Shown one piece after another: positions 1-18,756 of a stretch of 64,000 nt of DNA. Below the pieces are notes generated by a model that was given only the letters and a program-made list of their open reading frames with translations, made no database searches and had not been told where the DNA came from. A program made the position numbers and the translations under genes. Numbering within the stretch: position 1 is the first letter of the stretch; each line of letters starts with the position of its first letter. The stretch is from Chitinibacter sp. SCUT-21 (GTDB lineage Bacteria > Pseudomonadota > Gammaproteobacteria > Burkholderiales > Chitinibacteraceae): positions 372,001-436,000 of the forward strand of contig CP102611.1 of NCBI GenBank assembly GCA_041874755.1, in the 5' to 3' direction.

Positions 1-165
1 GATAACGACCGCGAACAGCAAAACCAGCAGGATATTAAGCGAGCCCAGTATCGTTTCTGGCGAATACACCACGGCAAGGGATTTAAATTGAAGCACCGGT
101 GGGGCGCTCGATTCGGAGCAGGCAGTAACCGGAGATGAATCGGGCAAAGAAGGGCGAGTCTGCAT
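1..165 (-). CDS. FecCD-family siderophore ABC permease, N-terminus only
   Basis: Partial gene running off the left edge. The 55 visible codons start with an ATG that directly abuts the TAA of the upstream permease gene. They encode a short hydrophilic leader and the first part of a membrane segment (…SLNILLVLLFAVVI). Two adjacent FecCD permeases are the usual arrangement for ferric-siderophore importers (FepD/FepG style), so this is inferred to be the second permease. The ATPase gene would be expected beyond the edge. Confidence 0.75.
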   Translation of the reverse strand, partial: MQTRPSLPDSSPVTACSESSAPPVLQFKSLAVVYSPETILGSLNILLVLLFAVVI

Positions 166-1203
166 TTAAGCCACCAAGCGATTGGATCGCACTAAAACAA
201 TCAACAACGGCGCACCGATCAAGGCCAGAATAATACTGACCGGATTATCGTAGGGCTGGCTCAACCAGCGGGCTACAATGTCGGCCACGACCAACACAAT
301 CGCGCCAAGCAAAGCGGAACAAAGCACTTGGTTAAATAATCGCGCACCGCTCAGCGAGCGCGCCAAATACGGCGCAATTAAGCCTAGAAAAGCCAAGGGG
401 CCAGCCAAGGCAACGGCCAAACCGCTGAGCAAGGTCGTAATCACGCCGACCAGCATACGGATTAAGGTCGGCTGGTAACCCAGCGCGCGCGCACTATCGT
501 CGCCCAACAGCAAGGCCGACAGCGGCCTAACGATCACGAAAGCCGCCGCCAAGCCCAACAAAAATGCGGGCACCAGCGGCCAGATCATCGCTGGGCTAGC
601 ACCGGCTAGCGTACCGAGAATCCAGAAACGATATTGCTCGTAGGCGTTGGCATGGCTGAGCAAAATATACGACGTTGCACCGGAAAAAGTCGCCCCCAGA
701 GCCAAGCCCGCCAGCACCAAACGCAGCGGTGACGCAGCATTTGGGCCTGATTGGGCAATCAGTAGCACCAGCATATTGGCGATCAGTGCGCCAATAAATG
801 CCCACAGCAAATAATCGAGGCTGCTTTGTACCGCCCCCAGCGTAAAGCCGATCACGATGCCGAGCGCAGCACCGGCATTAACACCGAGCAAACCAGTATC
901 GGCCAGCGGATTACGAGTCGCCGATTGCAACAAAGCCCCCGCAACGCCTAGGCTGGCACCGACCATGACGCCAGCCAAAGTGCGAGGCAGGCGCAAATCA
1001 TGAATCACCATCGCCAGCTGATCTTGCACTGCCGGATTAACACTATCCTGCCCCATCAGGTAATTCAAACTGGCCTGCATACCCAACTGGCCAGAGCCCG
1101 ATAGCAAAGACAAGCCTATCAATGCCAGCAGGGTCAGCAATAACAACGCTGCCAGACTGATTTGGCGTGGCGGATACAAGCTAGCGGCCATGATGTAAAC
1201 CAT
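166..1203 (-). CDS. FecCD-family iron-siderophore ABC transporter permease
   Basis: This 345-residue integral membrane protein has about nine hydrophobic segments and the FecCD hallmarks: 'RLPRTLAGVMVGASLGVAGA' near residue 72, 'NPLADTGLLGVNAGAA' near 97 and 'GLIAPYLARSL' near 273, the last being the coupling region for the ATPase. It is the usual family length. Its stop abuts the start of the next permease, so the two are probably translationally coupled. It lies 25 bases downstream of the binding-protein gene in the same operon. It should carry the ferric catecholate across the inner membrane. An in-frame ATG four codons downstream is an alternative start. Confidence 0.93.
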   Translation of the reverse strand: MVYIMAASLYPPRQISLAALLLLTLLALIGLSLLSGSGQLGMQASLNYLMGQDSVNPAVQDQLAMVIHDLRLPRTLAGVMVGASLGVAGALLQSATRNPLADTGLLGVNAGAALGIVIGFTLGAVQSSLDYLLWAFIGALIANMLVLLIAQSGPNAASPLRLVLAGLALGATFSGATSYILLSHANAYEQYRFWILGTLAGASPAMIWPLVPAFLLGLAAAFVIVRPLSALLLGDDSARALGYQPTLIRMLVGVITTLLSGLAVALAGPLAFLGLIAPYLARSLSGARLFNQVLCSALLGAIVLVVADIVARWLSQPYDNPVSIILALIGAPLLIVLVRSNRLVA

Positions 1204-1228: not shown

Positions 1229-2197
1229 TTAATTCGCCGCTGGTAGCAGATTTTTTTCAAGATCATCAAGCACCGCCAATGCCGCCAATGGGCCGCCGGT
1301 ACTGGTCCACAGCGAACCGTCGATAATTCGCACTTGCTGGGTTTTGACGACCTTCAGATTTTTAAATGCTGGCGCCGTTTGTACGGCTTTCAGCGTTTCA
1401 GCCGCTTCGCCTTCGGGCGACAAGGTACCAATAAACATCCAATCGGCATCAATTTCGCTGAGCACTTCTAAACTGAGCGGTTTAGAGTGATTCGTTCCCG
1501 GTCCCATCTGACCCGCAGGGCGCTTTAAACCCAGATCTTGCACGATCAAGCTGGAAAACGCGTCTTTAAACATATAGCCGGGGCCTTTTGGATTCCAGCG
1601 CACAATGCTGACCGTTTGGTCTGGCTTAATTTTTTGCCTTAACGCAGCCACGCGAGTTTGATACTGGGCGAGAAACTGCTGCGCTTGCGCCTCTTTACCC
1701 AACACGGCTGCGATCTGATTAAACGCAGACTTCCAATCCGAACCCGTTTTGACCGCCACGACCGTGGGTGCGATACGCTGCAATTTGGCGATGATTTGTT
1801 GATCGCGCAAATCAGTGAGAATCAAATCGGGTTTGGCCGCCAGCACTTTATCCATATTGGGCTGGGCAAATCCGCCAACGCTAAGGACCTCGGCATTCTT
1901 GTGATGTAAATGGCTTTGCAGATAATGCGGCATACCTGATTGACCACGGCCATTGGTAGCGCCCACTGGCTCGATACCCAGTGCCAGCAAGGCATCCAAT
2001 TCAAATTCGCCTAAGGCCAAAATACGCTGTGGCGATTGCGGAATGCTCACTTTACGCTCGGCCGCATCGACCATCTCACGACTCGGTACACTCGGCGCGC
2101 CATCGGCAAGCGGCGCGCGTGATGTCAAAACAAAAAACGCCATCACCGCCAGCAAAACCGCCAGCACCGTACCCCGCCATACTATTTTTTTATTCAT
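1229..2197 (-). CDS. Periplasmic iron-siderophore binding protein (FepB/FecB type)
   Basis: 322 residues with an N-terminal hydrophobic segment (about residues 8-25) that acts as signal peptide or anchor; no lipobox Cys is seen. The rest matches the PF01497 binding-protein fold: 'PQRILALGEFELDALLALGI' at about 57, then 'KPDLILTDLRDQQ' and a C-terminal 'VLDDLEKNLL'. This is the extracytoplasmic component of the permease pair that follows. A Fur-like box lies 45-62 bases upstream of the ATG, so iron repression is likely. The start is preceded by a purine-rich GGCGGGGAT. The exact ligand cannot be read from sequence, but the neighbouring catechol genes suggest a ferric catecholate. Confidence 0.92.
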   Translation of the reverse strand: MNKKIVWRGTVLAVLLAVMAFFVLTSRAPLADGAPSVPSREMVDAAERKVSIPQSPQRILALGEFELDALLALGIEPVGATNGRGQSGMPHYLQSHLHHKNAEVLSVGGFAQPNMDKVLAAKPDLILTDLRDQQIIAKLQRIAPTVVAVKTGSDWKSAFNQIAAVLGKEAQAQQFLAQYQTRVAALRQKIKPDQTVSIVRWNPKGPGYMFKDAFSSLIVQDLGLKRPAGQMGPGTNHSKPLSLEVLSEIDADWMFIGTLSPEGEAAETLKAVQTAPAFKNLKVVKTQQVRIIDGSLWTSTGGPLAALAVLDDLEKNLLPAAN

Positions 2198-2241: not shown

Positions 2242-2259
2242 GATAATGATAATGATTGC
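2242..2259 (-). promoter_or_regulatory. Fur box upstream of the binding-protein gene
   Basis: GATAATGATAATGATTGC closely follows the Fur repeat pattern GATAAT-GATAAT-(C)ATTATC; only the last hexamer is degenerate. It sits in the promoter region of the binding-protein/permease operon, and iron-dependent repression is inferred. Confidence 0.85.
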
Positions 2260-2320
2260 TTTTAATTACTCAGAGCAAATCGAATGTAGCGTGCTCAATC
2301 CAGCGAGCGCAAAAGCCAGA

Positions 2321-2438: not shown

Positions 2439-5400
2439 TCATTTCAAACCCAGTCGCGCCGCCAGCGTCTGACCAATCACGCGCATTGGGGCAGGATCGC
2501 TAAGGCCAAAATGATTGCAATCCAGATTTAGGCATTCGAGCTTCCCTGTCAGATATGGCAGCCAGCTGGCCGCCGCTGGAGCTGCCTCGCTATCGAGTGC
2601 TGCACGAAATAACAGCAAGTCACCCGAGTAGGTCTCGGTCTGGCTTTGTCGAAACAACTTCATCCCGTGCCATGCCCTGTCCCCCAAACGATGCAGCTCC
2701 GCAGTATCGAGCGCGGCAAACGGGCTACCCGGACGCTGCAAACGCAGGTAAATATCATCAACACTTAAATCTGCAGCTGCGATTTCACCATTCACACTCA
2801 ACACCGTGATCAGCGCATCGTGCAAAGTCGGTTCGCGCCAATTTGTGAACGCGGCCGCCGGATAGCTATCCATCAGCGCGACGAGCTCCACCACTGCTCC
2901 GCGTTGCTGCAAACGCACGGCAATCGCCTGCGCTAATGCCCCGCCAAGCGACCAACCGAGTAAGCGGTAAGGCCCTTGCGGCTGCTGCTCGACAATACGC
3001 GCAACATAGCGTTCAACCCAGCTGGCAAAGTCAGCCTCTCGCAGTTGGCTATCGGCCTGCAAACCATAAATAGCCACACCGGGTAGGTGCTTGGCCAAGC
3101 CCAGATAGCACCACGCCAAACCCTCAGCAGGATGCAAGCAAAAAAGTGCAGGCAAACTGCCCTGCTGGATCGGCAATAGGGGGGCAAAAGCGGTATGACC
3201 ACCAGCCTCTTGCGGTGGCCGGTGCGCGACCGGTGCACTCAAAGCTTTGGCCAAAGCGGCAACGGTGGCATGACTGAACAAAATCGATGCGGCGACTTCA
3301 CGCTGCAAAGCACGGCTAAGCTGGCTAGAAACCTGAATCGCCTGTAGCGACTTACCGCCTAGATCAAAGAAATTGGCATCAATATCGGCAGGCATTTCGC
3401 CAAGTACGTCAAACCACACCTGCATAATTTGCTGCTCTAAAGGGCTGGCATCGGGTAGCTCGCCCACCGACTGCTCGGCAAGCAAACCCGCCAGATGTTT
3501 TCTATCAATTTTCCCGTTCACATTACGTGGCAAGCTCGCAGGGTAATGCCACTGATCAGGAATTGCAGGCGCGGCCAATAAATCAGCCAAATGCGAGCGC
3601 AATTGCGCGGGTGTTTGCACCTGAGTGCAAACTACAAACGCCGCCAGCGTATACGCGCCATTGCGACGGCGCACCGCGACAACGGCGGCCTCTGCAATCG
3701 CCGGATTGCTAAGCAGTGCATTTTCAATTTCGCTCGGATCAATGCGCAGGCCGGAAATTTTAATTTCATGGTCAAGACGACCCAGAAAAACCAGCTGTCC
3801 ATCAAGCAGACACGCTCTGTCACCAGTTCGATAAGCACGTGGCGAGCCGTCCAATTGCGACAACGTCACAAAACGGCGTGCAGTTAATTCGGGCTGTCCG
3901 TGATACGCCAAAGCCAGCGCCTCTCCGGTCAGTAACAATTCACCAGCCTGCCCCACTGGTACCGGATACAAATTCTCATCAACAATCAAGGCTCCAACAC
4001 CGGGGCGCGGCACACCGATCGGCACACTATCGCTACCATCCCACACGCAATCGGGGCCAGCCAGAGCCGCAGTGGTCGCAATGATGGACGCTTCGGTCGG
4101 GCCGTAACTATTAAGCAGTGTTTGCGAAGGCAACAGCGCACCCCAGCGCCGAGCCCGTTCAGGCAAAGCCGCTTCGCCACCGATAATTGTCAACCTCACT
4201 GTGGTCAATTGCTGCGCTTGATCTTCAGTTAGCGCATGCGCCAATTCATGCCAGTAAGCCGTTGGCAAATCAAGGATGGTAATTTGCTTGGCAGCAATAA
4301 AGTCGCTGAATGTTGCGCTCGAATCGAGCATCGCATCGGTGCGCAAAATCAAGGTCGCGCCGTGGCATAGCGCGAGAAATATTTCTTCGATACTGGCGTC
4401 AAAATGCAGCGGTGCAAATTGCAAAACCCGATCAGTTTCGCCAACCGCATACAATTGGCCTGCACTGGCGACAAACTGCGACAACGCACCATGCCCCAGC
4501 AAAACGCCGTTGGGCACGCCAGTTGAGCCTGAGGTATACAGCAAATAGGCCGGATCGTTTGCCGTGGGCAAGAATGCAGCCGGCACGAGCAGATTCATTG
4601 TATTTGGCGCGTCAAGCAAAACCGTCTTTACGGCCCCAACCTTGCCTGCCCAGCACTGCAAAGTCACCACTTGCTGCGCTTGAGCATCGAGCAAAACTCG
4701 CTCTAAGCGCGTCGCAGGCCCCAATGGATCAAGCGGCACGTAGCAGCCACCGGCCCATAAAGTCGCCAGAATCGCGACTATCGCCTCTGGGCTACGGGGC
4801 AGCAAAATCACGACACGATCGCCCGGCTGCATACCGTTAGCCAGCAACCGCGCCGCCATTTGCTGTACTTGCGTGCGCAGCGCTGCATACGTCAAACTGC
4901 CTGCAGTGCGGCCATGGCCTTGCTTGAACTCGATAGCCGCTTTATCTGCATAGCGCTCGGTCATGACGAGCAGCTGAGCGATAACCGATTCAGGCTTTTT
5001 TAGGAGTGCCTCGCCCTCCATTTGCGCCAATGCTGGCAAATCACGCAACAAGTCGGTCAATGGCGCTTGCGGGCTTAATGCAGACAACTCGGCGACAAAA
5101 GCCATTAAATCGGCTTGCAGTTCGGTCAAGCGCGCCATGCTGTAGGCATTTGGATTAGCCTCCATGCACACGCGCCATTCGGTATTGAGCACCGACACGC
5201 TGATATTCAAGTCTTTGACGGGCCCGGCCGTAATCGGATGAATAATGCTGCTCAAACCCGCAAACGGCGCATGGCGATCAAATGGCATGATGTTGACGGC
5301 CTGATTGAATAAATGCTTACCGATTTCCAGCAACCCAAGATCGGCGCGGATCCAGCCGTAGCGATAGTACAAATGCGGCCGTATCGTACGCATGTTGCTT

Positions 5401-6335
5401 GCCAACTGAGCACTCAGTTCTTGCATGCTTTGCTCTGGATCGAGATACACGCTCATCGGTACGATATTCATCGCCATGCAGGGAATATTGATCGCAGGCG
5501 TTCCCAGTCGATTCATCACCGGCAAGCCGAAAGTGAACTGCCGTTGCCCAGATTGCTTGGCCAGCCATGCACTGATCGCCGCCAGCATCCAGCTCCCCCA
5601 ATCTTGACCGCATTGCTTGGCGGCACGCTGCAAGACACTTAATTCCTCGCTACTCAAGCGCGTACTATGGCGCAGCACATCGTCGGAAAAATCTTGCGCT
5701 GGATCTATCGTTACCGAACCTGGTGCATTTTTCATATGCGCCATCCAAAACGCCTGATCTTTCGCGCGTTTTCCAGTCTCGGTATACGTTTGCTCAGCGG
5801 CAATGATTTTGTTTAGCGACCAATCGGGTAGAGTCGGCAAGGGCTGTTGCAGCACTAGCGCGCTATAACGCGCCGCTACCGCCTGACCAATCAAGCCATA
5901 AGCGAAACCATCAATCGCGATATGATGGATTTGCAAATACCAGAGCTGTTTATCCGCCGCTGTTTGCAAAACCGCACTACGGAATAAGGGATCTTTAGTC
6001 GGATCGCACAGAACTGACAAAGATTGCTTGATCCACGCTTGCGCAGCCGCGTCGGCGTCAGCCTCGCCGCGCAAATCAATATATTCCAGCTTGGCATTGC
6101 GTTCTTGCGGCCACAACCACAAACCTTCATCGTTCATTTCGAACCGCGTGTGCAATGTTGCGGCATGATTGAGCACATCGGTGACCGCTGTACTTAGCGC
6201 GGCCAAATCGAGTTGCCCCGTCAATTCAATCGCTTCGGCGGTCAGGTAACACGGGCTTTGAGGCGCCATTTGTTGCCCCATCCAGATGCCGAACTGGGCT
6301 GAAGTTGCTGGCAAACGGGCAAAGTTTGATTTCAT
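2439..6335 (-). CDS. EntF-like nonribosomal peptide synthetase, C-A-T-TE
   Basis: A 1298-residue single-module NRPS with the architecture and length of EntF. The condensation domain (1-430) has HHIAIDG at 137-143. The adenylation domain shows A3 'YTSGSTGVPNG', A5 'NSYGPTEAS', A7 'YRTGDR' and A10 'NGKIDRK'. The carrier domain has 'FFDLGGKSLQ' with the phosphopantetheine Ser, and the C-terminal thioesterase has 'GWSLGG'. It should take DHB from EntB's carrier domain, join it to an amino acid and release or cyclise the product. By eye alignment to GrsA the pocket residues are D-A-E-D-I-G-S-I-I, not the serine code of EntF. The second substrate may therefore be a basic amino acid (inference), so no entF symbol is given. 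Confidence 0.93.
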   Translation of the reverse strand: MKSNFARLPATSAQFGIWMGQQMAPQSPCYLTAEAIELTGQLDLAALSTAVTDVLNHAATLHTRFEMNDEGLWLWPQERNAKLEYIDLRGEADADAAAQAWIKQSLSVLCDPTKDPLFRSAVLQTAADKQLWYLQIHHIAIDGFAYGLIGQAVAARYSALVLQQPLPTLPDWSLNKIIAAEQTYTETGKRAKDQAFWMAHMKNAPGSVTIDPAQDFSDDVLRHSTRLSSEELSVLQRAAKQCGQDWGSWMLAAISAWLAKQSGQRQFTFGLPVMNRLGTPAINIPCMAMNIVPMSVYLDPEQSMQELSAQLASNMRTIRPHLYYRYGWIRADLGLLEIGKHLFNQAVNIMPFDRHAPFAGLSSIIHPITAGPVKDLNISVSVLNTEWRVCMEANPNAYSMARLTELQADLMAFVAELSALSPQAPLTDLLRDLPALAQMEGEALLKKPESVIAQLLVMTERYADKAAIEFKQGHGRTAGSLTYAALRTQVQQMAARLLANGMQPGDRVVILLPRSPEAIVAILATLWAGGCYVPLDPLGPATRLERVLLDAQAQQVVTLQCWAGKVGAVKTVLLDAPNTMNLLVPAAFLPTANDPAYLLYTSGSTGVPNGVLLGHGALSQFVASAGQLYAVGETDRVLQFAPLHFDASIEEIFLALCHGATLILRTDAMLDSSATFSDFIAAKQITILDLPTAYWHELAHALTEDQAQQLTTVRLTIIGGEAALPERARRWGALLPSQTLLNSYGPTEASIIATTAALAGPDCVWDGSDSVPIGVPRPGVGALIVDENLYPVPVGQAGELLLTGEALALAYHGQPELTARRFVTLSQLDGSPRAYRTGDRACLLDGQLVFLGRLDHEIKISGLRIDPSEIENALLSNPAIAEAAVVAVRRRNGAYTLAAFVVCTQVQTPAQLRSHLADLLAAPAIPDQWHYPASLPRNVNGKIDRKHLAGLLAEQSVGELPDASPLEQQIMQVWFDVLGEMPADIDANFFDLGGKSLQAIQVSSQLSRALQREVAASILFSHATVAALAKALSAPVAHRPPQEAGGHTAFAPLLPIQQGSLPALFCLHPAEGLAWCYLGLAKHLPGVAIYGLQADSQLREADFASWVERYVARIVEQQPQGPYRLLGWSLGGALAQAIAVRLQQRGAVVELVALMDSYPAAAFTNWREPTLHDALITVLSVNGEIAAADLSVDDIYLRLQRPGSPFAALDTAELHRLGDRAWHGMKLFRQSQTETYSGDLLLFRAALDSEAAPAAASWLPYLTGKLECLNLDCNHFGLSDPAPMRVIGQTLAARLGLK

Positions 6336-6420: not shown

Positions 6421-7389
6421 TTAGTGCTCACTCGTTGATACAGGTGCCGAAAAGGCAAAATCGACCACGCGCCGCGCACCGTGCAGCAACATGTCCATAT
6501 GATCATGCGCAGGCAGGCAATCAAAACTCACGTCAAACTTTGCGCCGTCGTTGTAGCTCGCCAATTGCTGCGCAAACGCTTGCGCGTTATCGACCATCGC
6601 ACGTTCGCCCGATTTAGCCTCGACAAATGGCGAAGAAAATTGTGAGGGGTATTGCTCATCAAGACCAACAGTAATGGTCACCTTGGCGCTATACCCTGCC
6701 AAGTTCATTGTTTCCAACTTCGTCAACTGTTCTGGCAATCGCTTTAAAGTTTGCGCTTCACCAAACCACAACGACGGACTCGCGGCCCAATAGCGCTGGA
6801 AATATTGCGGCTGAGTGCTAAGCGTATACAGCGCAAACAAACCGCCGTACGAGAAACCAAACAGCGTTTGCTGCTGCGGATTAATTGCGAATTGCTGAGC
6901 AATCAAGGGGCGCAATTCGCTGATTAGAAAACGCAGAAAATCATCGGCGCCACCATGTTTGCTGGACAATAAATCACCAGTTTTGGCCGTAGTGACTGGC
7001 GTGTAATCTTGGGAGCGGGCATCGATATCAAATGGTTTACCGCTGGCGTAGGCCACCGCAACGATCAAGCCGTCGTTGGGCGTACGCCCTTGGCGCCACA
7101 GGCGCTGATCACCGCCGATTTGCGGTCTAACCGTTTCGATAATCGGAAAACTGGCCAAACCATCGAGCGCCCATAGCACGGGATAGCCGTCTTTGGGCGC
7201 AGCATGGGCCGGCAGGCCAATCAGAATGCGATATTTTTGCCCCGTAATTTTCGAGTTCAAATCAAAAGTTAGCGTGCGTTCGCGCTCGGCTGTGCGCCAA
7301 TTCGCCGGAAAGTCAGCGGCGCGACTGGCCTGATTAGTTAGCATAAAAATTCCGACCCCCATTAATACAACCCAGTGGTATAGCCTCAT
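6421..7389 (-). CDS. Periplasmic siderophore esterase-like hydrolase (IroE/Fes type)
   Basis: 322-residue alpha/beta hydrolase of the putative-esterase family (PF00756). An N-terminal signal sequence (about 1-24, ending 'QASRAA') places it in the periplasm, as for IroE rather than cytoplasmic Fes. The nucleophile Ser is in 'GFSYGGLFALY' and the likely catalytic His is in 'LPAHDHMDML' near the C-terminus. It would hydrolyse ester bonds of a cyclic or linear catecholate and help release iron. It lies between entB/DUF2218 and the NRPS in the same orientation. If the NRPS product has no ester backbone, the substrate would need another explanation. Confidence 0.85.
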   Translation of the reverse strand: MRLYHWVVLMGVGIFMLTNQASRAADFPANWRTAERERTLTFDLNSKITGQKYRILIGLPAHAAPKDGYPVLWALDGLASFPIIETVRPQIGGDQRLWRQGRTPNDGLIVAVAYASGKPFDIDARSQDYTPVTTAKTGDLLSSKHGGADDFLRFLISELRPLIAQQFAINPQQQTLFGFSYGGLFALYTLSTQPQYFQRYWAASPSLWFGEAQTLKRLPEQLTKLETMNLAGYSAKVTITVGLDEQYPSQFSSPFVEAKSGERAMVDNAQAFAQQLASYNDGAKFDVSFDCLPAHDHMDMLLHGARRVVDFAFSAPVSTSEH

Positions 7390-7425: not shown

Positions 7426-7713
7426 TTAATCTACTCTGTGCCAATCGAGTTTGAGTTCAGGATTTTTGACCATCAAGCCCAAATGATCGGTAATCACCCA
7501 CTCAACTTTGGCCAGCAGCTCTTTATCAGCGGCTGCACAGTCCATGGCCAGAAAATCGTTGGTGCGAACAATGTGGCATTCGCCATACGGAAACTTGATG
7601 TAGGCTTTTTCGGTATCAAAATCGACCGGAATTTTCAGCGCAAAGTGTTTACACAACTTGTACAGCACCTTGTCGGCGTTGGCGGCGCTCAGTTGTGCCT
7701 GACTATTGAACAT
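7426..7713 (-). CDS. DUF2218-family protein
   Basis: The 95-residue protein starts at the ATG at 7713, which has an AGGA-type ribosome site; a longer upstream reading would run through a hairpin and is rejected. It fits the small cytosolic DUF2218 family: 'ADKVLYKLCKHFALKIPV', 'FPYGECHIVR', 'LMVKNPELKLDW'. Members are often seen next to siderophore genes, but their function is not established as far as I know. It occupies the place between entB and the esterase where entA is often found, but it has no Rossmann motif and is not a dehydrogenase. Confidence 0.85.
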   Translation of the reverse strand: MFNSQAQLSAANADKVLYKLCKHFALKIPVDFDTEKAYIKFPYGECHIVRTNDFLAMDCAAADKELLAKVEWVITDHLGLMVKNPELKLDWHRVD

Positions 7714-7790: not shown

Positions 7791-8663
7791 TTAGGCCGGC
7801 ACGGCCTCTTTTTCGGCCAGCAGCGCCCACCAAGCTGCCAGCGTTGGCGTTTCAGCTAAAGCCATAAAAGTCAGCTCACGGCCGGCACGGCGCCAGCTTT
7901 CCAGCAAACCCATGATGCGAATCGAATCGAGCCCCCAATCGAGTAGATTGTCGTCAGCACGAATTTCTGCCGCCGCAATTTGCAATTCGCTTGCGATCAG
8001 TGCGCTTAAAGCATCTAGCGATGCTGGCAAGGGCGTGACCAAGCTTGCCAACAACTGCGCGGTGGTTTGCGCACTACCACAACGCTGCGCCACGTAACGC
8101 AAAGCCATTTCGTGCTCATCGAGCGAAAAGTCTGCCAAACCGTCTGCAACAAAAAACGCCTGGATGTCGTTCATAAACGCCTCGCATGCCGTCATCATGC
8201 AGCCGATATGCGCATAAACGCCGCAAATCACCAGCTGATCGCGTCCTTGCACTTTCATACGCTGCGCTAAATCCGACTTCTGGAACGCGCTATAGCGCCA
8301 TTTATCGAGAACAATGTCGCTAGTTTGCGGCGTCAACTCACTCACAATCGCATTGCGTTGTGGCTGCGCAGTCAGCCCCGGCCCCCACATATCCTGCAAC
8401 AAACCACGTTGCAGAGCCGATTGCTCGGGCAATTGCGCGGTGTACACCACCGGAATACCTTGCTCATGCGCGGCATCGAGCAAACAACGAATATTGGCGA
8501 TCAACTCAGGCACCGGCGCAGCGTTGCGATCATAAAAATCGATAAAATAATCCTGCATATCGTGCACCAACAATACCGCACGCTGCGCATCAAGCTGCCA
8601 GTTGACTCGATTAGCCGGCGCACTCTTTGGCATTGGATACGTTGGAATTTTTGGAATAGCCAT
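7791..8663 (-). CDS. entB: Isochorismatase with aryl carrier domain
   Basis: 290-residue two-domain protein. The N-terminal isochorismatase domain (about 1-205) has 'LLVHDMQDYFIDFY', 'DKWRYSAFQ' and 'GVYAHIGCMMTACEAF', and converts isochorismate to 2,3-dihydro-2,3-dihydroxybenzoate. The C-terminal aryl carrier domain has 'LLDWGLDSIRIM' with the phosphopantetheine-bearing Ser. The length matches E. coli EntB (about 285). It loads DHB delivered by EntE and presents it to the NRPS condensation domain. It follows entE after 33 bases, so the two are probably cotranscribed. Confidence 0.95.
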   Translation of the reverse strand: MAIPKIPTYPMPKSAPANRVNWQLDAQRAVLLVHDMQDYFIDFYDRNAAPVPELIANIRCLLDAAHEQGIPVVYTAQLPEQSALQRGLLQDMWGPGLTAQPQRNAIVSELTPQTSDIVLDKWRYSAFQKSDLAQRMKVQGRDQLVICGVYAHIGCMMTACEAFMNDIQAFFVADGLADFSLDEHEMALRYVAQRCGSAQTTAQLLASLVTPLPASLDALSALIASELQIAAAEIRADDNLLDWGLDSIRIMGLLESWRRAGRELTFMALAETPTLAAWWALLAEKEAVPA

Positions 8664-8696: not shown

Positions 8697-10310
8697 TTAG
8701 CCAGCCAGCTGCGCTGCGATTAAGGCGCGCAAATGCTTTTTACTCACTTTGCCAACACCGGTTTTAGGAAATTGCGGCAAAAACTCGATGCGATCAGGAA
8801 TTTTGTACGTCGCCAAACCGCGTTCGCGCAAAAAGCGAATCAAGTCGACACCACGCACCGATTCGTCACTGCGAATAACAAATGCGCAGCTTTTTTCGCC
8901 CAAGTAAGCGTCGGGCATGGCCACAACCGCCGCGTCGACGACGCGATCGTGTTCAAGCAATTGGTTTTCAACTTCCTCGGCCGAAATTTTCTCGCCGCCG
9001 CGATTGATTTGATCTTTGGCGCGGCCTTCAACGACGAGGTTGCCCTCGGCGGTCAGCCGAACGCGATCGCCAGTGCGATAAAACCCATCCGGCGTGAACG
9101 CGCGCTCGTTGTGCTCGTCAGCGCGGTAGTAGCCATGAATGGTGTACGGGCCGCGCGTGAGCAAATGTCCGACCTCGCCCTTTGCAACGGGCAGATCTTC
9201 ATCATCGACAATGCGAATTTCATCGTGCGGCGAAATGGGCCGCCCTTGGCTGTAGCACGTCACCTCAAGCCTATCGTCAAGTCGCGTGTAATTAACCAAG
9301 CCTTCGGCCATGCCAAACACTTGCTGCAAGGTCACGTTCAACTCGCGCGTCAACCGGCGTGCGACTTCAGGGCTAAAACGCGCACCACCCACTTGGACGA
9401 CGCGAAGGCTACGCAGATCGGGCTTTAAACTCTTAACGGCATCAAGCCAAACTGGCACCAAGGGCGGCACCAGCGCCGTCATCGTCACGCCCTCTTTGGC
9501 AATCCAATTGAGCGCCACATCCGGGCTCGGGTGCGCGCACATCACCACTTTGCCGCCGGCATAGAACGTGCCGAGCGAGCCGGGTGAACTTAGCGCAAAG
9601 TTATGTCCGCACGGAATGACGCTCAAATACACGCTATCCGGTGTCAGTTGGCAAATTTCGGCGCTGCCGCGCAAGCTGTAGATGTAATCGTCGTGCGTAC
9701 GCGGGATTAGCTTCGGCGTACCGGTACTACCGCCCGACAACTGAAAAAACGCCACGTCGCTGGCCAATGGCTCAGCCGGCAATTCTCCGTTTTTTGTTGG
9801 CACACTCGCCAGCGCAGTAAATTCGGCCGCCTCGCCCAGCACAATGACATGTTGCAAACTAGGCGCTTCTGCCTGTACTTCGCGCGCCAAAGCGCGGTAA
9901 TCAAAACCGGCGTGCGTATCGGCGATGATGTAAGCCACTGCTTCGGCATGCTGACAAAAGTTCCGAATTTCAAACTTGCGATGCGGTGGCAATGCAAAAA
10001 TTGGCAACGCACCAAGGCGAAATAAGGCAAAAATTACGATTAAAAATTCGGCGCAATTGGGCAACTGTACGACGACGCGATCTTGCGGCTGTATGCCCAG
10101 TGCAGCAAAGCCCTTGGCCATTTGCGTCACTTGCTCGCTCAATTGCGTGTAAGTGAGTCTGTGCGTGTCGCTGACGATCGCGTCGCGATCGCCAAATTGC
10201 GCGACTCGCTCGGCTAGCATGGCTGGGAAAGTTTCGCCACGCCAATAGCCTGCAGCACGGTATTGCTCGGCAAGCTCTTCAGGCCATGGCGTGCAATGAG
10301 ATACCCGCAT
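8697..10310 (-). CDS. entE: 2,3-dihydroxybenzoate-AMP ligase
   Basis: 537 residues, the usual EntE/DhbE length. Adenylate-forming motifs are '[19 protein letters not shown]' near 197, '[11 protein letters not shown]', 'YRTGDRV' and '[15 protein letters not shown]'. The [10 protein letters not shown] segment is typical of aryl-acid ligases. It activates DHB with ATP and transfers it to the EntB carrier domain in the cytosol. Its ATG overlaps the stop of entC by one base (TAATG), which indicates translational coupling. Confidence 0.95.
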
Positions 10311-11494
10311 TACACCGCTCCTTCAGCCGCGTCTGCCGACAAACCCAAGGCATTGAGCATGGTTTTGAATTTGGCCGCGGTTTCGGTCAATTCGCTTTGC
10401 GGTGTTGAATCGACAACGACGCCAGCCCCCGCAAATAACCGCACTTGTTTACCCTTCACTTTGGCGCAGCGGATGGTCACAATCCACTCGCCATTCCCCT
10501 CGGCGTCGCACCAGCCAACCATGCCGGTATAAAAACCGCGATCGAATGGCTCTAACTCAGCAATCAAATCGCGCGCGGCCTGATTCGGGTAACCGCATAC
10601 CGCAGGTGTCGGGTGTAAATGCGCAGCCAGCCATAATGAACTTGCCGATTCGTCCTGAAGTTGACCACGAATATCGCTGGCCAAATGCCACATCGTTGCG
10701 GTACTGACTAAGTTTGGGCTCGCTGGCGCGACCAAATGACTGCAAAACGGGCGTAAATTGGCTGCGACCGCATCGGCCACCACTTTATGCTCGTACAGAT
10801 CTTTGGCTGAATTCAGTAGCACATCGCACCGGCGCGCGTCTTCTTGCGGCTGATAGGCTCGAGCCGCCGAACCCGCCAATGGGTTGGAGCGCACGTAAAC
10901 CCCATTACGGCTGAGTAAGAGCTCAGGACTTGCGCCGATTAGTGTGCCCTGTTCGGCATCATCTAAATTAACGGCAAAGGTATAGCCACTTGCATTATTT
11001 CCAGCAAGGCGCGCCAGCAGATACCCCACATCAAATTCTTTTTCAGTGCTGACGCTCAAGGTTCGGGCAAGGACAACTTTGCTCAGCAGCTTGCTTTTCA
11101 TGCGCTCAACCGCTTCGGCCACGCCTGCGGCGTACACTTGCGGTGCAGGCTCTGCGGCAATGCTGTAATTCATTTTCTCGCCTTGACCCAGCGGCTGTGA
11201 CGCAAGTGGTCCGGCGCGAAGTACGGTTTGCGGAATCGACAGGCAAGCCGTTTGATGGCCATCAAAGGGAATTGCACCGACGACCACGGGGTTGGGATGG
11301 CCCGCGGCTTTTGCCTTTTTCAATGCAGCATCAACGTTCTTGCTCAAATCCAGCAGATTATCGGCACTTGGCACCTTGGCGTAATGCCCTTGGCCGAGCA
11401 AAGTGTGCTCCGGTGTCGCAAAAAAGAAAGGCTGCTCGCTAGCGTAATTCGCCAGTAGCTCTTGGGCGCTGGGCACTGCGGTAGATTGTGTCAT
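10310..11494 (-). CDS. entC: Isochorismate synthase
   Basis: 394 residues of the chorismate-binding superfamily (PF00425). Diagnostic motifs are 'KVVLARTL', 'IGASPELLL', '[11 protein letters not shown]', '[14 protein letters not shown]' and the C-terminal 'LFAGAGVV'. It isomerises chorismate to isochorismate, the first committed step to DHB. It heads the entCEB series with a one-base overlap to entE. No clear Fur box is seen directly upstream, so iron control may come from a more distant promoter. Confidence 0.94.
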
Positions 11495-11652: not shown

Positions 11653-12966
11653 TTACTTGCTAACTCCCGCTGGCTGCACTTCTACTGCTAGCGCAATTGC
11701 AGCACTTTCAGGCTCCACAGCCGCGTGCTTGGATACCTGATGCAGCTGAATTTTTCCCGACAAATACAAAGTCATTCCGGTAATGACAATAGCCACCCAG
11801 CCAGCAGTGCCATAGCCACTTATTTCGCCACTGACACTCTGGCTAATCAGCATGCCGCCGATATAGGCCGCCAAGCCATTGGCCATCTGCTGAATAGCGG
11901 CATTCAAGGACATGAAAGTGCCGCGCTGCGCTGGCTTGACGGCAGACATCGTAATGGCCATCGCACTGACCGCGCGGCCAGGCCCGAGCGCGAAAAACAC
12001 GGTGGTACACAACAGGACCCAGCCCAGCGCAACCGCGGGTAAATGCGTCAGGGCAAAAATCGGCAATATCGACAAAGCCGCCACGATGCGGTAGCTCTTG
12101 ACCTTGCCCCAATTGTCGGCAAGGCGACCGATAAAACGTGCACTAAAGAAACTGGCCGTACCACCAATGGCATACACCAGCGGAATCAATTCGGCGGCTA
12201 CACCCACGCTGCCGGTCAGATACAGCGTGATGTAGGGAATTACAACAAACGTCGAACCACCGCCCAGCGCCATGAATAGGATCGCAAGGCAATGATTGCG
12301 CTCGCGCAGTACTGCAACGAGATTGGCAGTTGGAGATATTCGCGCATTAGCTTGGGGACAACGAGCGTGCAGCAGATGCGAGCGCAAGCTTGGCAACTTC
12401 ATACTAGCCAGCAGTAGAAAAATCGCTGCCAGTACGCCGATGGCGACAAAAGGAACTCGCCAGCTCAACACATTGCTGAGCAACAACGCCATAGGTACGC
12501 CAAGCACCGAGGCAACCGCCGTTGCCGACATTACCGAAGCACTGGCTTGGCCGCGTCGCTCAAACGGAATCAGATCAGCAACCATGGTCTGCACCATCGC
12601 TGCGAGCACGCCGCCAAAAGCGCCAGCCATTGCTCTTGCGGTCAATAAAGATTCAAAACTGCCAGCCGCAGCACACCACAGCGTGGACAAAATAAAGATG
12701 AAAAAGAACAAGAGCAGCAAACGCTTGCGCTCAAATAAATCAACAAAAGCCGCGGCCAAAAAGCCGCTCACTGCCGCTGCCAGCGTATATGCTGACACCA
12801 GCAAGGCAAATTCGTGCGTGCTTAATGCCAAGGATTTGATTAACACAGGCCCCAGGGGCATAAGCACCATGAAATCGAGAATGTGCGAGAACTGTATGCC
12901 CGCCAATATGCAAAGCAATTCACGCTCGTGTTTTAACGACAATGGTGTGGCTAGTGATGGGTTCAT
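11653..12966 (-). CDS. MFS transporter, probable siderophore exporter
   Basis: 437 residues from the ATG at 12966, which has GGGG upstream; the seven extra codons of a longer reading are unlikely. Twelve hydrophobic segments carry major-facilitator motifs ('LLTARAMAGAFGG', 'DLIPFERRGQASA'). The order receptor-MFS-entCEB mirrors loci in which an MFS protein (EntS-type role) exports the new siderophore. Similarity is to general AraJ-like drug efflux, so the export role rests on context. Confidence 0.85.
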   Translation of the reverse strand: MNPSLATPLSLKHERELLCILAGIQFSHILDFMVLMPLGPVLIKSLALSTHEFALLVSAYTLAAAVSGFLAAAFVDLFERKRLLLLFFFIFILSTLWCAAAGSFESLLTARAMAGAFGGVLAAMVQTMVADLIPFERRGQASASVMSATAVASVLGVPMALLLSNVLSWRVPFVAIGVLAAIFLLLASMKLPSLRSHLLHARCPQANARISPTANLVAVLRERNHCLAILFMALGGGSTFVVIPYITLYLTGSVGVAAELIPLVYAIGGTASFFSARFIGRLADNWGKVKSYRIVAALSILPIFALTHLPAVALGWVLLCTTVFFALGPGRAVSAMAITMSAVKPAQRGTFMSLNAAIQQMANGLAAYIGGMLISQSVSGEISGYGTAGWVAIVITGMTLYLSGKIQLHQVSKHAAVEPESAAIALAVEVQPAGVSK

Positions 12967-13031
12967 GGTTGCCCCGTAGCAGAACAAAAGCCAAATTTCT
13001 TACCCGTTTTGGCGAGCTTAAAGGTGATTAA

Positions 13032-13104: not shown

Positions 13105-15177
13105 TTAGAAGTTGGTAGCGACCTTCATCCAGTAGCGACGTCCTTCGTCAACCATCCAGTTGCCATCTAGACCTTGGGCGCGAGTACGTTCATCCACGGG
13201 AACCACTTCATCGGTCAGATTGAGCACAGCCATACTGATGCTGACGTTTTTATTAATCACGTAGCTGGTGCCCAAATCAAAAGTCAGCGTTGATTCGCGA
13301 GTGCGAATGCCATTAGCGCCATTGCGGAATGCCGCAAAAACTTCTTCGCCGGAATACGTTGCGTGAATGTATGAAGACCATTTGCTGTTCGGCGTCCAAT
13401 CGACTTGCAGGTTGGCCATATTTTCTGGCGTGCGAGTCAAAGGCTGGCCGTCGAGCGACGTACCGTTGTAGGCCGGTTCACCTCCCCCTTCACGGCTTGA
13501 ATGCGTGTACGTATAGTTGCCCGAGACTTTCCAATCACGACCAATCGGCCAGCTCGCCGCGACTTCAACGCCTCGAATAACGGCTTTGTCGATATTGTCG
13601 TAAACGTAGATGTTGTAGCCTTTGTACAGCGGATCACGTTTGCCAGTGTCATAGCTGGTGACTTTGTTTTTAAAGTCATTGTTAAACATGGTGAACGAGA
13701 ATGACTCGCCTTGGCTGCCGTCATAACGCACGCCGATTTCTTCGGTCAGGCTATCTTCCGGCTTCAAATTTGGATTGCCGCACAATGAGCCAGGGCGCAG
13801 GCCGGTATTAACACGACCTGACGTCATGCAATAGCCCGCTGTAGTTTGACGCAGCGTCGGCGATTTAAAGCCACTAGCCACACCAGCACGCAAAGTCCAT
13901 AAATCGGTTAATTTATACACAGCATACAGACGCGGGCTCCAATGTGAATCGTATAGATCAGAGTTGTCGACCCGCAGACCACCAGTCAATGACAGCTTGT
14001 CAGTCACGGCAAATTCGTCTTCTACAAACAGTGCCCATGACGTAGCATCCGCTTCATTCGGGCTGGCTTTATGGCCAGGTACTGGAGATTCGGTACGCAA
14101 ACCCCGCAATTGGTTGTGATTGTATTGGCCACCGAATTTGACGATATGCGCGTCAAACGGCAACGTCACTAGTGCATCAACCACGGTATTGTCGATGTCG
14201 CGTGGCAATGGATTGTTTGCGCCATTTTTGGTATTGCTTTCTTTTCCTTTCTCTTGATAGACAGAGATCGATGTCAGACCAAAACCCCAGCGGCCGTTAT
14301 GCGTCATACTCCAGTAGTCGCGCGCATAATCGTTTTCAACATTACCCAAAGCCGCCGTGCTGGTCATGCCTATCGTACTGGTGTTGTCGAGCTCATTACG
14401 GCCTACGGTCAAGATAATGTCTTGATTGTCGGTCGGCGTAACGGTTAGCTTGGCGCCCAATGTTCTATCTTTGGTGCCATAAGCACCTGCCGTTAAGCTC
14501 TTTGGATCGTAGTAATCATCTTCGGCGCGGTTACTGTAGTTGCCAAAAAATTGCAAACCCGCCACGCCTTCTTTCAAGGGGCCGCTCAACCAGAATTCAC
14601 CTTGGCCGGTGTTGCCGTGCGCCGAGTCTTCCTGCAAAGTGCCGCTCACGCTGATCGCGCCTTGCCATTGCTTGGCAATTTTGCGCGTAATGATATTGAT
14701 GACACCGCCCATCGCATCAGCACCGTAGAGTGACGACATCGGGCCACGGATCACTTCGATACGCTCGATAGCCGATAGCGGTGGAATCAAAGACGGCTGA
14801 ACACCACCCGAGCTACGGTTTGACGTTTCGCGCGTATTCTGGCGTTTGCCATCAACCAAGATCAACGTATATTCACCCGGCATACCGCGAATCTGAATGT
14901 CTTTATCGTTTGGGGAGTAGCCGGTGATGCTAATACCTTCAATTTGGCGCACCGCATCTTCCAGATTGGCAAACGGCTTGGATTCAAGTTGTTCGCGCGT
15001 AATCACAGAAATACTCGCTGGCGCTTCCTTGATTTGTTGCTCATAGCCCGAAGCCGTCACAACAACGGCATCCAGCGTGGCCACATCATCAGCATAAGCA
15101 CTACCCATCAATGCCAACCCTAGCAAGAAAGGGATGGGACGAACGACAAAATCAGCTTGCTCAAACTTCGCAGACAT
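13105..15177 (-). CDS. TonB-dependent catecholate siderophore receptor (CirA/IrgA type)
   Basis: 690-residue outer-membrane receptor. After a signal region (ending near 'GSAYA', residue 29) comes a TonB-box-like 'LDAVVVTAS', then the plug ('APASISVITREQLESKPFAN', 'IERIEVIRGPMSSLYGADAM', 'GGVINIITRK') and a 22-strand-sized barrel ending in the expected aromatic residue ('YWMKVATNF'). The MSSLYG-AMGG stretch resembles CirA/IrgA more than FepA. It imports the ferric catecholate with TonB energy. It is divergent from an AraC-type activator over a Fur-like site. Confidence 0.94.
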   Translation of the reverse strand: MSAKFEQADFVVRPIPFLLGLALMGSAYADDVATLDAVVVTASGYEQQIKEAPASISVITREQLESKPFANLEDAVRQIEGISITGYSPNDKDIQIRGMPGEYTLILVDGKRQNTRETSNRSSGGVQPSLIPPLSAIERIEVIRGPMSSLYGADAMGGVINIITRKIAKQWQGAISVSGTLQEDSAHGNTGQGEFWLSGPLKEGVAGLQFFGNYSNRAEDDYYDPKSLTAGAYGTKDRTLGAKLTVTPTDNQDIILTVGRNELDNTSTIGMTSTAALGNVENDYARDYWSMTHNGRWGFGLTSISVYQEKGKESNTKNGANNPLPRDIDNTVVDALVTLPFDAHIVKFGGQYNHNQLRGLRTESPVPGHKASPNEADATSWALFVEDEFAVTDKLSLTGGLRVDNSDLYDSHWSPRLYAVYKLTDLWTLRAGVASGFKSPTLRQTTAGYCMTSGRVNTGLRPGSLCGNPNLKPEDSLTEEIGVRYDGSQGESFSFTMFNNDFKNKVTSYDTGKRDPLYKGYNIYVYDNIDKAVIRGVEVAASWPIGRDWKVSGNYTYTHSSREGGGEPAYNGTSLDGQPLTRTPENMANLQVDWTPNSKWSSYIHATYSGEEVFAAFRNGANGIRTRESTLTFDLGTSYVINKNVSISMAVLNLTDEVVPVDERTRAQGLDGNWMVDEGRRYWMKVATNF

Positions 15178-15322: not shown

Positions 15323-16246
15323 ATGCTAGAGATGTCCAATCTGATTTCGAGTAGCGATACGCAAACGCTCAAGCTGCGATCGGAACACGATGGCGTTGTT
15401 TTAACGGGGCGGGTTTTCAATGAGAAATATCATAACCAGCTCGAGTTGCATTGCAGCGATATCAAGCTCAAACAGCAAATCCGAAGCCAGTCACAACTCA
15501 AGCCCGGCATCAAGCTGATTGTGATGCTGGAAGGCTGCATCGCCATGCAATCGTCCCGGATGCAGCACAGGTTAGACTCGCAGCAATCAGGAGTGCTACT
15601 AGTTTCCAGTACGGAAAATGAGCCATTCAAACGCGCGATGCTGGAGCTTGGGAGTCAGCAACAAGTCGTTTTGCATGTACCACCCGAGTGGTTTGAAGAA
15701 GGCGGCTACACCAGTTTGCCAAGCTTTAAAAAAACCGCGCAATTTTGCCAGCAGCATCTGGCCTATTATCAATGGCGAGCCAGTAAGTACTTGCAGTCAA
15801 TGTGCAAAATGCTGTTTCAGGACTGGACTTTGCAAGACCATATGCAAAAACTGCACCGCGAGTTTCTCGCGCTGGAATTACTGCATTACGGCTTAGAGCC
15901 GTTATCGGGTAAAACGTTTATAGATCCACGTGCCGAGCAACGCGTCGCCAGACTGATCGAGCTATTGCACAGCGGTGAGGCCGATCATTATTCGCTGTCA
16001 GAAATGGCCAGCGCCGTCGGCAGCAATGCAACGACGCTGCAAAAACAGTTTCAGGAAAAAATGGGCCTCAGCATTTTCGACTACTTGCGCCGCTACAAAT
16101 TGGAAAACGCGCGCCTGCAATTGCAACAGGGATTGAGCGTAACCGAGGCGGCACTAATCGCCGGCTACAAAAGCCCGGCCAATTTTACGACCGCATTCAA
16201 ACGACTATTTGGTGCTTTACCCAAGAATGTTCGTGTACATAAGTAA
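15323..16246 (+). CDS. AraC-family regulator, PchR type
   Basis: 307 residues; AGGAG lies eight bases before the chosen ATG. The N-terminal ligand-binding part (about 1-200) is followed by two AraC helix-turn-helix motifs ('YSLSEMASAVGSNATTLQKQ' and 'LSVTEAALIAGYKSPANFTT' with 'FKRLFGALPKNVR'). PchR/YbtA/AlcR-type regulators sense the ferric siderophore and activate receptor and biosynthesis genes. Its divergent position to the receptor fits this role. Ligand and targets are inferred. Confidence 0.9.
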   Translation: MLEMSNLISSSDTQTLKLRSEHDGVVLTGRVFNEKYHNQLELHCSDIKLKQQIRSQSQLKPGIKLIVMLEGCIAMQSSRMQHRLDSQQSGVLLVSSTENEPFKRAMLELGSQQQVVLHVPPEWFEEGGYTSLPSFKKTAQFCQQHLAYYQWRASKYLQSMCKMLFQDWTLQDHMQKLHREFLALELLHYGLEPLSGKTFIDPRAEQRVARLIELLHSGEADHYSLSEMASAVGSNATTLQKQFQEKMGLSIFDYLRRYKLENARLQLQQGLSVTEAALIAGYKSPANFTTAFKRLFGALPKNVRVHK

Positions 16247-16530: not shown

Positions 16531-18684
16531 TTAACCTGCCTGTATTGCATGCAACCGGGCGTAATATCCATCAGCTCGACTAACTAGCTCTTGATGCGGC
16601 CCTTGCTCAACAATTTGCCCGCGATCCATGGCAATAATCCGATTGGCATCGCGTACCGCAGAAAGTCGATGTGCAATAATCAGCACTGTACGCCCTTGGC
16701 AGATGGCTTTCATGTTGTTCTGAATAATGCGTTCAGATTCGTAATCCAAGGCACTGGTGGCTTCATCAAAAATCAGGATGCGCGGATTGGTAATCAGCGC
16801 TCGTGCAATCGCGACGCGCTGACGCTGTCCACCCGACAAGCCAGTACCGTGTTCGCCCACCATCGTGTCATACCCTTCAGGCAACTCTACGATGAAGTCA
16901 TGAGCCCCTGCTAATTTGGCTGCATGAATCACCTTCTCCATATTCATACCAGGGTCAGCCAAAGCGATGTTGTCACGTATACTGCGATTGAAAAGCAAGT
17001 TTTCTTGCAAGACCACGCCGACTTGTCGACGCAGCCAAGCAGGATCAACCAGCCCCAGATCAATCCCATCAATCAACACGCGCCCACGCTCTGGCACATA
17101 CAAGCGCTGCAGCAATTTGGTCAGCGTGCTCTTACCTGAACCAGAGCGCCCCACAATGCCAATCACTTCACCAGCATTAATTTCCAATTTGATGCCTCGC
17201 AGGATTTCTGGACCATCGGCACAATAACGGAAATGGACTTGGTCAAATTCGATCTTGCCCTGAATCGGCGGCAGCGCAGCGCGGCTTTGGTTGATTTCAG
17301 TACGGGTATTTAAGATATCGCCCAAGCGTTGCATCGAAATACCTACCTGCTGGAAATCCTGCCACAGCTGGGCCAGACGCATGACGGGGCTTGCCACTCG
17401 GCCGGCCAGCATATTAAACGCAATCAGTTGCCCGACACTGAGATCGCCTTGAATCACCAGCTTGGCACCCAGCCACATCGTCGCGACGGTGACGATTTTT
17501 TGAATCAAGCTCACGCCCTGGCTACCCACATTGCCCAATTGGGAGACTTTGAATCCTGCAGCAACGTAGGCTGCCAGTTGGTTATCCCAACGGCGCGTCA
17601 CTTGCGGTTCAACGGCCATAGCCTTGACGGTTTCAATGCCATTGACTGTTTCAATCAAAAACGATTGATTTTCGGCACCGCGGGCGAACTTCTCATCCAG
17701 ACGCGCTTTCAAAACTGGAGTAATGAGCACAGATAGCGCCACATAACATGGCAGGGAAACCAGCACGATCAGCGTCAGCCACCAACTGTAGTAGACCATG
17801 ACAGCTAAAAAGACGATCGAGAAAAATAAATCGAGCACCGAGGTCAGGGCTTGGCCGGTCAGGAAATTACGAATGTTCTCCAGCTCACGCACACGCGCGA
17901 CCGAATCACCAGCGCGACGGGCCTGGAAATAAGCCAGTGGCAAATTGAGCAAATGACGGAATAACTTGGCGCCCAGCTCAACGTCAATACGGTTGGTGGT
18001 ATGGCTAAAAACATAGGTGCGCAGGAAAGTCATTCCCACTTCAAACAGCGAGATGACTAATAAGCCGATTGCCAGCACATCGAGTGTCGTCACACCACGA
18101 TGCACCAACACTTTATCCATGACGACTTGAAAGAACAGTGGCGTTGCCAGCGCAATCAGGTTCAAAAAGAATGAGACCAGCAAGACTTCACCGAGCAGCT
18201 TGCGGTATTTCACCACAGCTGGAATAAACCAAGAGAAATCGAACTTGGCCAAATCACCTGCCAAGCTCGCGCGTGAAGTAAACAGAATCAATCGCCCTGA
18301 CCACAAGGCTTGCCATTCATCCTGACTACATTGTTGCGGTCGACCGACTTGCGGGTCTTGGTACAACACCATCGCGCCATCGATTTTAGCCAGAATCACC
18401 CAACGACCATCGAGTAGCTGCGCCATCGCCGGTAACGGCGTGCGATCCAGACGATCGAAGCGTGAATGAAGTGCTTTAGCTTTCAAACCGGCTTGCTTGG
18501 CGGCACGCAGCACATCCTGCTCGCTGAGCAAACCTGACTCGCCAATAAACTGATGCTTGATCTGATCCGGCTCAATCGCCACCTGATGAAAGCGGGCCAG
18601 CATAACCATGCAGGCAAGCGCAGAATCAAAAGGAGGGATTGGTTCTTCATCAGATGGTGAAATGGGTAAATCGTGGGCGTTCAT
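16531..18684 (-). CDS. Type I secretion ABC exporter with C39-like domain (HlyB/RtxB type)
   Basis: 717 residues from ATG 18684. A longer reading would use a TTG inside the preceding terminator and is rejected. An N-terminal C39-like domain ('[20 protein letters not shown]') lacks a catalytic Cys/His pair, as in HlyB. A six-helix membrane domain follows (about 155-440), then an ABC ATPase with Walker A 'GRSGSGKST', signature 'LSGGQRQR' and Walker B '[12 protein letters not shown]'. It should export the RTX protein encoded just upstream together with the HlyD-type adaptor. No TolC-like gene is in the window. Confidence 0.94.
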
Positions 18685-18712
18685 TGGATTCAGATTTTTT
18701 GAAAATAAGAAA

Positions 18713-18734
18713 CCCGACCTCAAGAGAGGTCGGG
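18713..18734 (-). terminator. Terminator between RTX and exporter genes
   Basis: CCCGACCTC-TCTT-GAGGTCGGG followed on the minus strand by TTTCTTATTTTC. This is a classic rho-independent structure. It would limit expression of the exporter relative to the abundant substrate, as in many T1SS operons. Confidence 0.85.
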
Positions 18735-18756
18735 CGTATAGCTCTACAAGCCGATA

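Follow-up and report, generated by a model that had tools for sequence, protein, structure and literature searches.

A single-module, lysine-type synthetase in an enterobactin-like operon of Chitinibacter sp. SCUT-21 points to a siderophore of the cepaciachelin/azotochelin type

We analyzed a 64,000-nucleotide stretch of the Chitinibacter sp. SCUT-21 genome (contig CP102611.1, positions 372,001 to 436,000; hereafter the window), in which one open reading frame (ORF) of 1298 amino acids fills positions 2439-6335 on the minus strand. This ORF encodes a single-module non-ribosomal peptide synthetase (NRPS) located in an enterobactin-like operon. Sequence comparisons make it very probable that it assembles a bis-catecholate siderophore related to cepaciachelin and azotochelin, and not enterobactin. 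The gene and its domains are:

2439..6335, minus strand: single-module NRPS with condensation (C), adenylation (A), carrier (T) and thioesterase (TE) domains, lysine-type, 1298 amino acids (ORF, Pfam, NCBIfam, pocket alignment, trees)
5079..6314, minus strand: C domain, residues 8-419 (Pfam PF00668; HHIAIDG motif at residue 137)
3510..4958, minus strand: A domain, residues 460-942 (Pfam PF00501 and PF13193)
4080..4400, minus strand: pocket-bearing stretch of the A domain, residues 646-752, with D A E D I G S I I (alignment)
3240..3434, minus strand: T domain, residues 968-1032 (Pfam PF00550, PP-binding; motif LGGKS)
2499..3149, minus strand: TE domain, residues 1063-1279 (Pfam PF00975; motif GWSLG)

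Within the A domain, the Pfam matches are split into AMP-binding (residues 460-811) and AMP-binding_C (residues 869-942), and the protein carries the core motifs HHIAIDG, YTSGSTG, NGKID, LGGKS and GWSLG. The same C-A-T-TE order was found in the homologues P0030, P0019 and P0055. A search of the whole genome revealed a single condensation domain, that of the NRPS, and one phosphopantetheinyl transferase-family protein of 222 amino acids. Amonabactin had been considered as a product because the homologue P0009 (64% identity) is labelled AmoF. The amonabactin route is multi-module, and the single condensation domain in the genome speaks against this candidate, which was rejected.

The specificity pocket was determined from a MAFFT alignment of the NRPS, EntF of E. 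coli K-12 and homologues against residues 234-335 of GrsA (reference piece PDB 1amu, identical over 102 residues), using GrsA positions 235, 236, 239, 278, 299, 301, 322, 330 and 331. It is formed by D646, A647, E650, D689, I717, G719, S743, I751 and I752 (DAEDIGSII), and the flanking blocks FDASIEEIF, LDLPTAYW, RLTIIGGEA and LLNSYGPTEASIIATT aligned cleanly. These are the nine residues that the original prediction had read by eye, and its statement that the pocket is not serine-like was likewise confirmed: in the same alignment EntF has DVWHFSLVD, which differs at eight of nine positions.

A protein search at 1e-100 yielded 130 homologues out of 7994 scored candidates, and from the best 120 of these the 95 with a length of 800-1750 amino acids were surveyed, the 25 longer ones being dropped. 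A pocket of the type D[A/T]ED[I/V]G[S/T][I/V][I/V] was present in 92 of the 95 aligned homologues, the window counted, and the other three had serine-type codes; in rows P0001-P0083 the D[A/T]ED[I/V]G type was found without exception (83/83, window counted). Since 92 of 95 homologues carry the same pocket type, this pocket is not a product of chance. The exact sequence DAEDIGSII occurred in 11 aligned rows including the window, among them P0030 of Chromobacterium violaceum, a C-A-T-TE synthetase which thus matches the NRPS at nine of nine positions. The Burkholderia rows (DAEDIGTII) and Methylophilus OH31 (DAEDIGSVI) were one or two residues off the window pocket, and MxcG of Myxococcus showed DAEDIGTVV. 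Two loci outside the trees, L008 (probably misaligned, with a gap) and L032, had codes that were left uninterpreted. A text-string search of the paper collection met DAEDIG in a single paper, on eggshell proteins, and not in a published Lys code table.

Trees of the A, C and TE domains were built from 38 chosen rows. In the A-domain tree, the window was placed with 100/100 support inside an 18-row clade of TE-type lysine synthetases, which includes the single-module lysine-type synthetases of Chromobacterium violaceum, Burkholderia and Methylophilus. The reductase-type lysine rows stood next to this clade and all serine-type rows (7/7) lay beyond a branch with 100/100 support. These 18 rows, the window among them, also grouped together in the C-domain tree (100/100), where the deeper forks were weak. 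In the TE tree, obtained with a quick method, the clade was kept with an SH-aLRT value (approximate likelihood ratio test) of 97; the deeper order, including the place of the EntF TE, was unsettled, and this tree gave no clear origin for the TE of the NRPS. The identity of the A domains to that of the window was 62% for C. violaceum, 63% for Methylophilus OH31, 56% for B. multivorans, 51% for Myxococcus MxcG and 33% for EntF. At the level of the whole protein it was 56% for C. violaceum and 50% for B. multivorans.

The best NCBIfam model of the NRPS was that of the myxochelin synthetase MxcG (NF038078, 984.6 bits, below the cut-off of 2300), followed by EntF (NF007605, 545.5 bits, below the cut-off of 2400). 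A true EntF that activates serine and makes enterobactin would agree with the C-A-T-TE order, the EntF-family score, the enterobactin-like set of genes for 2,3-dihydroxybenzoate (DHB) and an esterase gene in the operon. The pocket, the score below the EntF cut-off and the position of the serine-type rows in a separate A clade nevertheless make this explanation extremely unlikely, as does the absence of an MbtH homologue from the genome search, whereas in E. coli ybdZ (MbtH) adjoins entF. An EntF-like C-A-T-TE protein in an enterobactin-like operon can therefore be a lysine enzyme serving a very different siderophore, and it is the pocket code and the A-domain clade that decide.

The use of lysine followed by reductive release to an alcohol or amine, as by a myxochelin synthetase, is suggested by the best model, by the C-A-T order and lysine-type pocket shared with the Myxococcus MxcG rows and by the operon's exporter, whose best match is MxcK. 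The MxcG match, however, covers positions 3-1046 of 1442 and stops before the reductase (PF07993) at the end of MxcG, where the NRPS has a thioesterase instead. A myxochelin synthetase is thus hardly credible here.

Clusters of the lysine type in enterobactin-like surroundings have already been described as cepaciachelin clusters, of which the cluster in the window is probably a further member. Homologous clusters of Methylophilus sp. 5 and C. violaceum CV017 led to cepaciachelin, as found by inverse isotope labelling and tandem mass spectrometry (MS/MS), the C. violaceum cluster being that for chromobactin, and azotochelin and aminochelin were also detected in Methylophilus (PMC13251462). A B. 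ambifaria cluster with the organization Cstarter-A-Te and a Lys code was linked to cepaciachelin by MS (PMC4906002). Cepaciachelin is a lysine carrying DHB on both amines and joined through its carboxyl group to putrescine, and the cpc cluster is described as comprising a TonB receptor, an MFS (major facilitator superfamily) transporter, an ABC (ATP-binding cassette) transporter and EstA, which has a putative signal peptide of the Sec type (PMC5681537). The window has the DHB genes and the same kinds of transport genes together with an EstA-like esterase gene, in agreement with this review. Like the window NRPS, the cepaciachelin synthetases of B. ambifaria, C. violaceum and Methylophilus have the order C-A-T-TE, and Chromobacterium, Burkholderia and Methylophilus rows share its A and C clade, with an identical pocket in C. 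violaceum. Unlike the cepaciachelin clusters, the window has entB and est separated by a DUF2218 gene, an arrangement shared with loci L004 and L089. A close homologue is P0002 of Deefgea tanakiae, with 76% identity to the NRPS and an identical pocket; L089, which appears to be the locus of this gene, has the gene order of the window. These results place a predicted bis-DHB-lysine cluster in Chitinibacter sp. SCUT-21 and its Deefgea relative.

Activation of lysine is strongly supported by these comparisons. Among lysine, ornithine and a diamine, lysine is favored because cepaciachelin contains lysine (PMC5681537). A pair of acidic residues in the pocket does not by itself fix the chain length, which would leave room for ornithine or diaminobutyrate, but the pocket is the same at all nine positions as that of the C. 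violaceum relative, whose presumed product contains lysine, and the A-domain tree brackets the window with Burkholderia, Chromobacterium and Methylophilus rows, making these substrates highly unlikely. The earlier proposals of a basic substrate and of a siderophore other than enterobactin, despite the appearance of the operon, are both well supported at the sequence level.

The operon has the order receptor, MFS, entC, entE, entB, DUF2218, est, NRPS, fepB, fepD, fepG, fepC, entA, in which the rest of fepG, fepC and entA lie past the window edge. Its features, with those outside the window given in the coordinates of locus L002, are:

L002 14380-15285, outside the window: EntA (TIGR04316, 360.8 bits, over cut-off)
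L002 15188-16006, outside the window: FepC-like ATPase
1..165, minus strand: end of a second permease (FepG-like), remainder outside the window at L002 16083-17165
166..1203, minus strand: FepD-like ABC permease (ORF; 42% to E. coli FepD)
1229..2197, minus strand: FepB-like siderophore periplasmic binding protein (Pfam PF01497)
2242..2260, no strand assigned: possible Fur box, 45 bases before fepB (15/19 to the consensus; weak)
6421..7389, minus strand: EstA-like esterase, whose N-terminus by eye resembles a Sec signal peptide (Pfam PF00756)
7426..7713, minus strand: DUF2218 protein, ATG at 7713 (Pfam PF09981)
7791..8663, minus strand: EntB-like isochorismatase with aryl carrier domain (Pfam PF00857, PF00550)
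8697..10310, minus strand: EntE-like DHB-AMP ligase (TIGR02275, 761.8 bits, over cut-off)
10310..11494, minus strand: EntC/DhbC-like isochorismate synthase (NF005380, 495.8 bits, over cut-off)
11653..12987, minus strand: MFS exporter, scoring best against MxcK (314 bits, below the cut-off of 525)
13105..15177, minus strand: TonB-dependent receptor (Pfam; best NCBIfam IreA family, under cut-off)
15323..16246, plus strand: AraC-type regulator, divergent (Pfam PF12833)

The genes for DHB biosynthesis thus adjoin the NRPS gene, with entC, entE and entB in the window and entA just outside. Since the scores of EntE, EntC and EntA exceed the respective NCBIfam cut-offs, the full DHB gene set is present; the EntB-like protein had no curated NCBIfam EntB match. 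The score of the possible Fur box (15/19) compares with a maximum of 14 over 20 mononucleotide shuffles of the window, a weak signal. Fur-like matches of 13/19 in the gap between the receptor and AraC genes were no better than those in shuffles and were dropped.

From the protein families and the cited papers, a route from these genes to the siderophore can be proposed. EntC, EntB and EntA would form DHB, which EntE would load onto the carrier domain of EntB, and the A domain would activate L-lysine and transfer it to its own T domain. The single C domain would then acylate both lysine amines with DHB, a step suggested by the products of the relatives together with the presence of only one C domain. 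Release by the TE to water would give azotochelin (bis-DHB-lysine), and release to an amine would give cepaciachelin if the amine is putrescine. The MFS protein would act as exporter, and the TonB receptor, the binding protein and the ABC transporter would import the ferric form. Alternatively, one amine might be acylated and the TE might link several DHB-lysine units through their free amines into a ring or another oligomer, which would be the lactam analogue of enterobactin. The TE has the serine motif GWSLG as in EntF, and the quick TE tree leaves its relation to the EntF TE open. However, the products reported for the homologous clusters are of the bis-DHB-lysine kind and not oligomers (PMC13251462), and we consider this route very unlikely.

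Several points weigh against the assignment to the cepaciachelin/azotochelin type. The likeness to the cpc cluster was drawn from the text of a review and not from Burkholderia DNA, Methylophilus OH31 differs from the strain 5 of the paper, and that P0030 is the synthetase of the chromobactin cluster is itself something we infer. The uptake genes vary: in loci L003 and L005-L007 the receptor (29%) and the ABC set (ATPase 35-38%) are different ones, so the uptake half of the cluster is not conserved. In the fragment L004 no MFS gene was seen. Furthermore, the source of the capping amine is not evident: the only PF02784 decarboxylase in the genome search was LysA, and neither an arginase/agmatinase nor an agmatine deiminase match was obtained. 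The genome encodes one PF01276 Orn/Lys/Arg decarboxylase of unsure substrate, for which the best NCBIfam model was LdcC (below cut-off) and the best PDB entry by sequence 6q6i. The molecule name of this entry is arginine decarboxylase; we take it for LdcA, a lysine decarboxylase from Pseudomonas aeruginosa. Three matches to the spermine/spermidine-synthase family were also found. Among the families searched, there was no putrescine route beyond the PF01276 enzyme. Either this enzyme or uptake may supply putrescine.

A last point against the assignment is the conserved esterase, which an ester-free siderophore does not explain. An est homologue was located between entB and the NRPS gene in all seven close clusters (the window, L003-L007 and L089), of which the Rhodoferax loci L006 and L007, absent from the trees, were included on account of their identity (65-66%). 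Within the sequence retrieved for other loci, blastp at 1e-5 detected no est homologue in the outer TE-type loci L090-L093 (0/4; L091 without the entB side), in the reductase-type loci L008, L011, L094 and L095 (0/4) or in the serine-type loci L055 and L096-L099 (0/5). The reductase was confirmed in L008, L009, L011, L094 and L095 and the thioesterase in L089, L090, L092 and L096-L099; L097 had no DHB genes nearby. In L010 the est homologue sits in a separate block. The window Est had no blastp match to E. coli Fes at 1e-3 and matched the enterochelin esterase hidden Markov model weakly (26.2 bits). For EstA of the cpc cluster, a hint at the use of foreign enterobactin has been suggested (PMC5681537). 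The conserved position of est raises the question why an esterase-like gene with a signal peptide is fixed in the operon of an ester-free siderophore. As the families searched revealed no ordinary putrescine route and the PF01276 enzyme is nearest to 6q6i, the product could conceivably be azotochelin itself or a relative of cepaciachelin with a cadaverine cap. We regard it as rather unlikely that such a product is combined with an EstA-like hydrolase acting on the ester-free siderophore itself, either releasing iron as an amidase or serving as the amine-capping transacylase, and not on foreign enterobactin.

With respect to distribution, 58 of 300 genomes sampled from the order matched the NRPS at 1e-60, and a single match over the full span with at least 44% identity occurred in only five of the 300, the window's own genome included. 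The genus is represented in this sample by one further genome, G372, which had no match at 1e-60, so the NRPS cluster is patchy within the genus. Of 369 genomes of the class, none passed the MxcG cut-off.

Some further observations concern neighboring and related genes. The DUF2218 gene recurs in siderophore clusters: it neighbors est not only in the window but also in L004, L089 and L010, whereas in L003 and L005-L007 it follows the ABC genes, and in the serine-type locus L096 it is close to ABC genes. At window positions 16531-21930 on the minus strand, a type I secretion-like pair was recognized by eye, consisting of an ABC exporter whose N-terminal part is peptidase-like and of a glycine/aspartate repeat protein of 1057 amino acids. 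In the Uliginosibacterium locus L010, an intact ORF of 446 amino acids (3378-4718, plus strand) encodes a stand-alone C domain with the motif HHIALDG, which adjoins the DUF2218 and est genes. Its identity is 60% to the window NRPS and reaches 70% with other C domains of the close clade; the full NRPS of L010 itself is 45% identical. A second stand-alone C domain was found at G399:C56:8290-9606, with 48% identity over residues 2-441.

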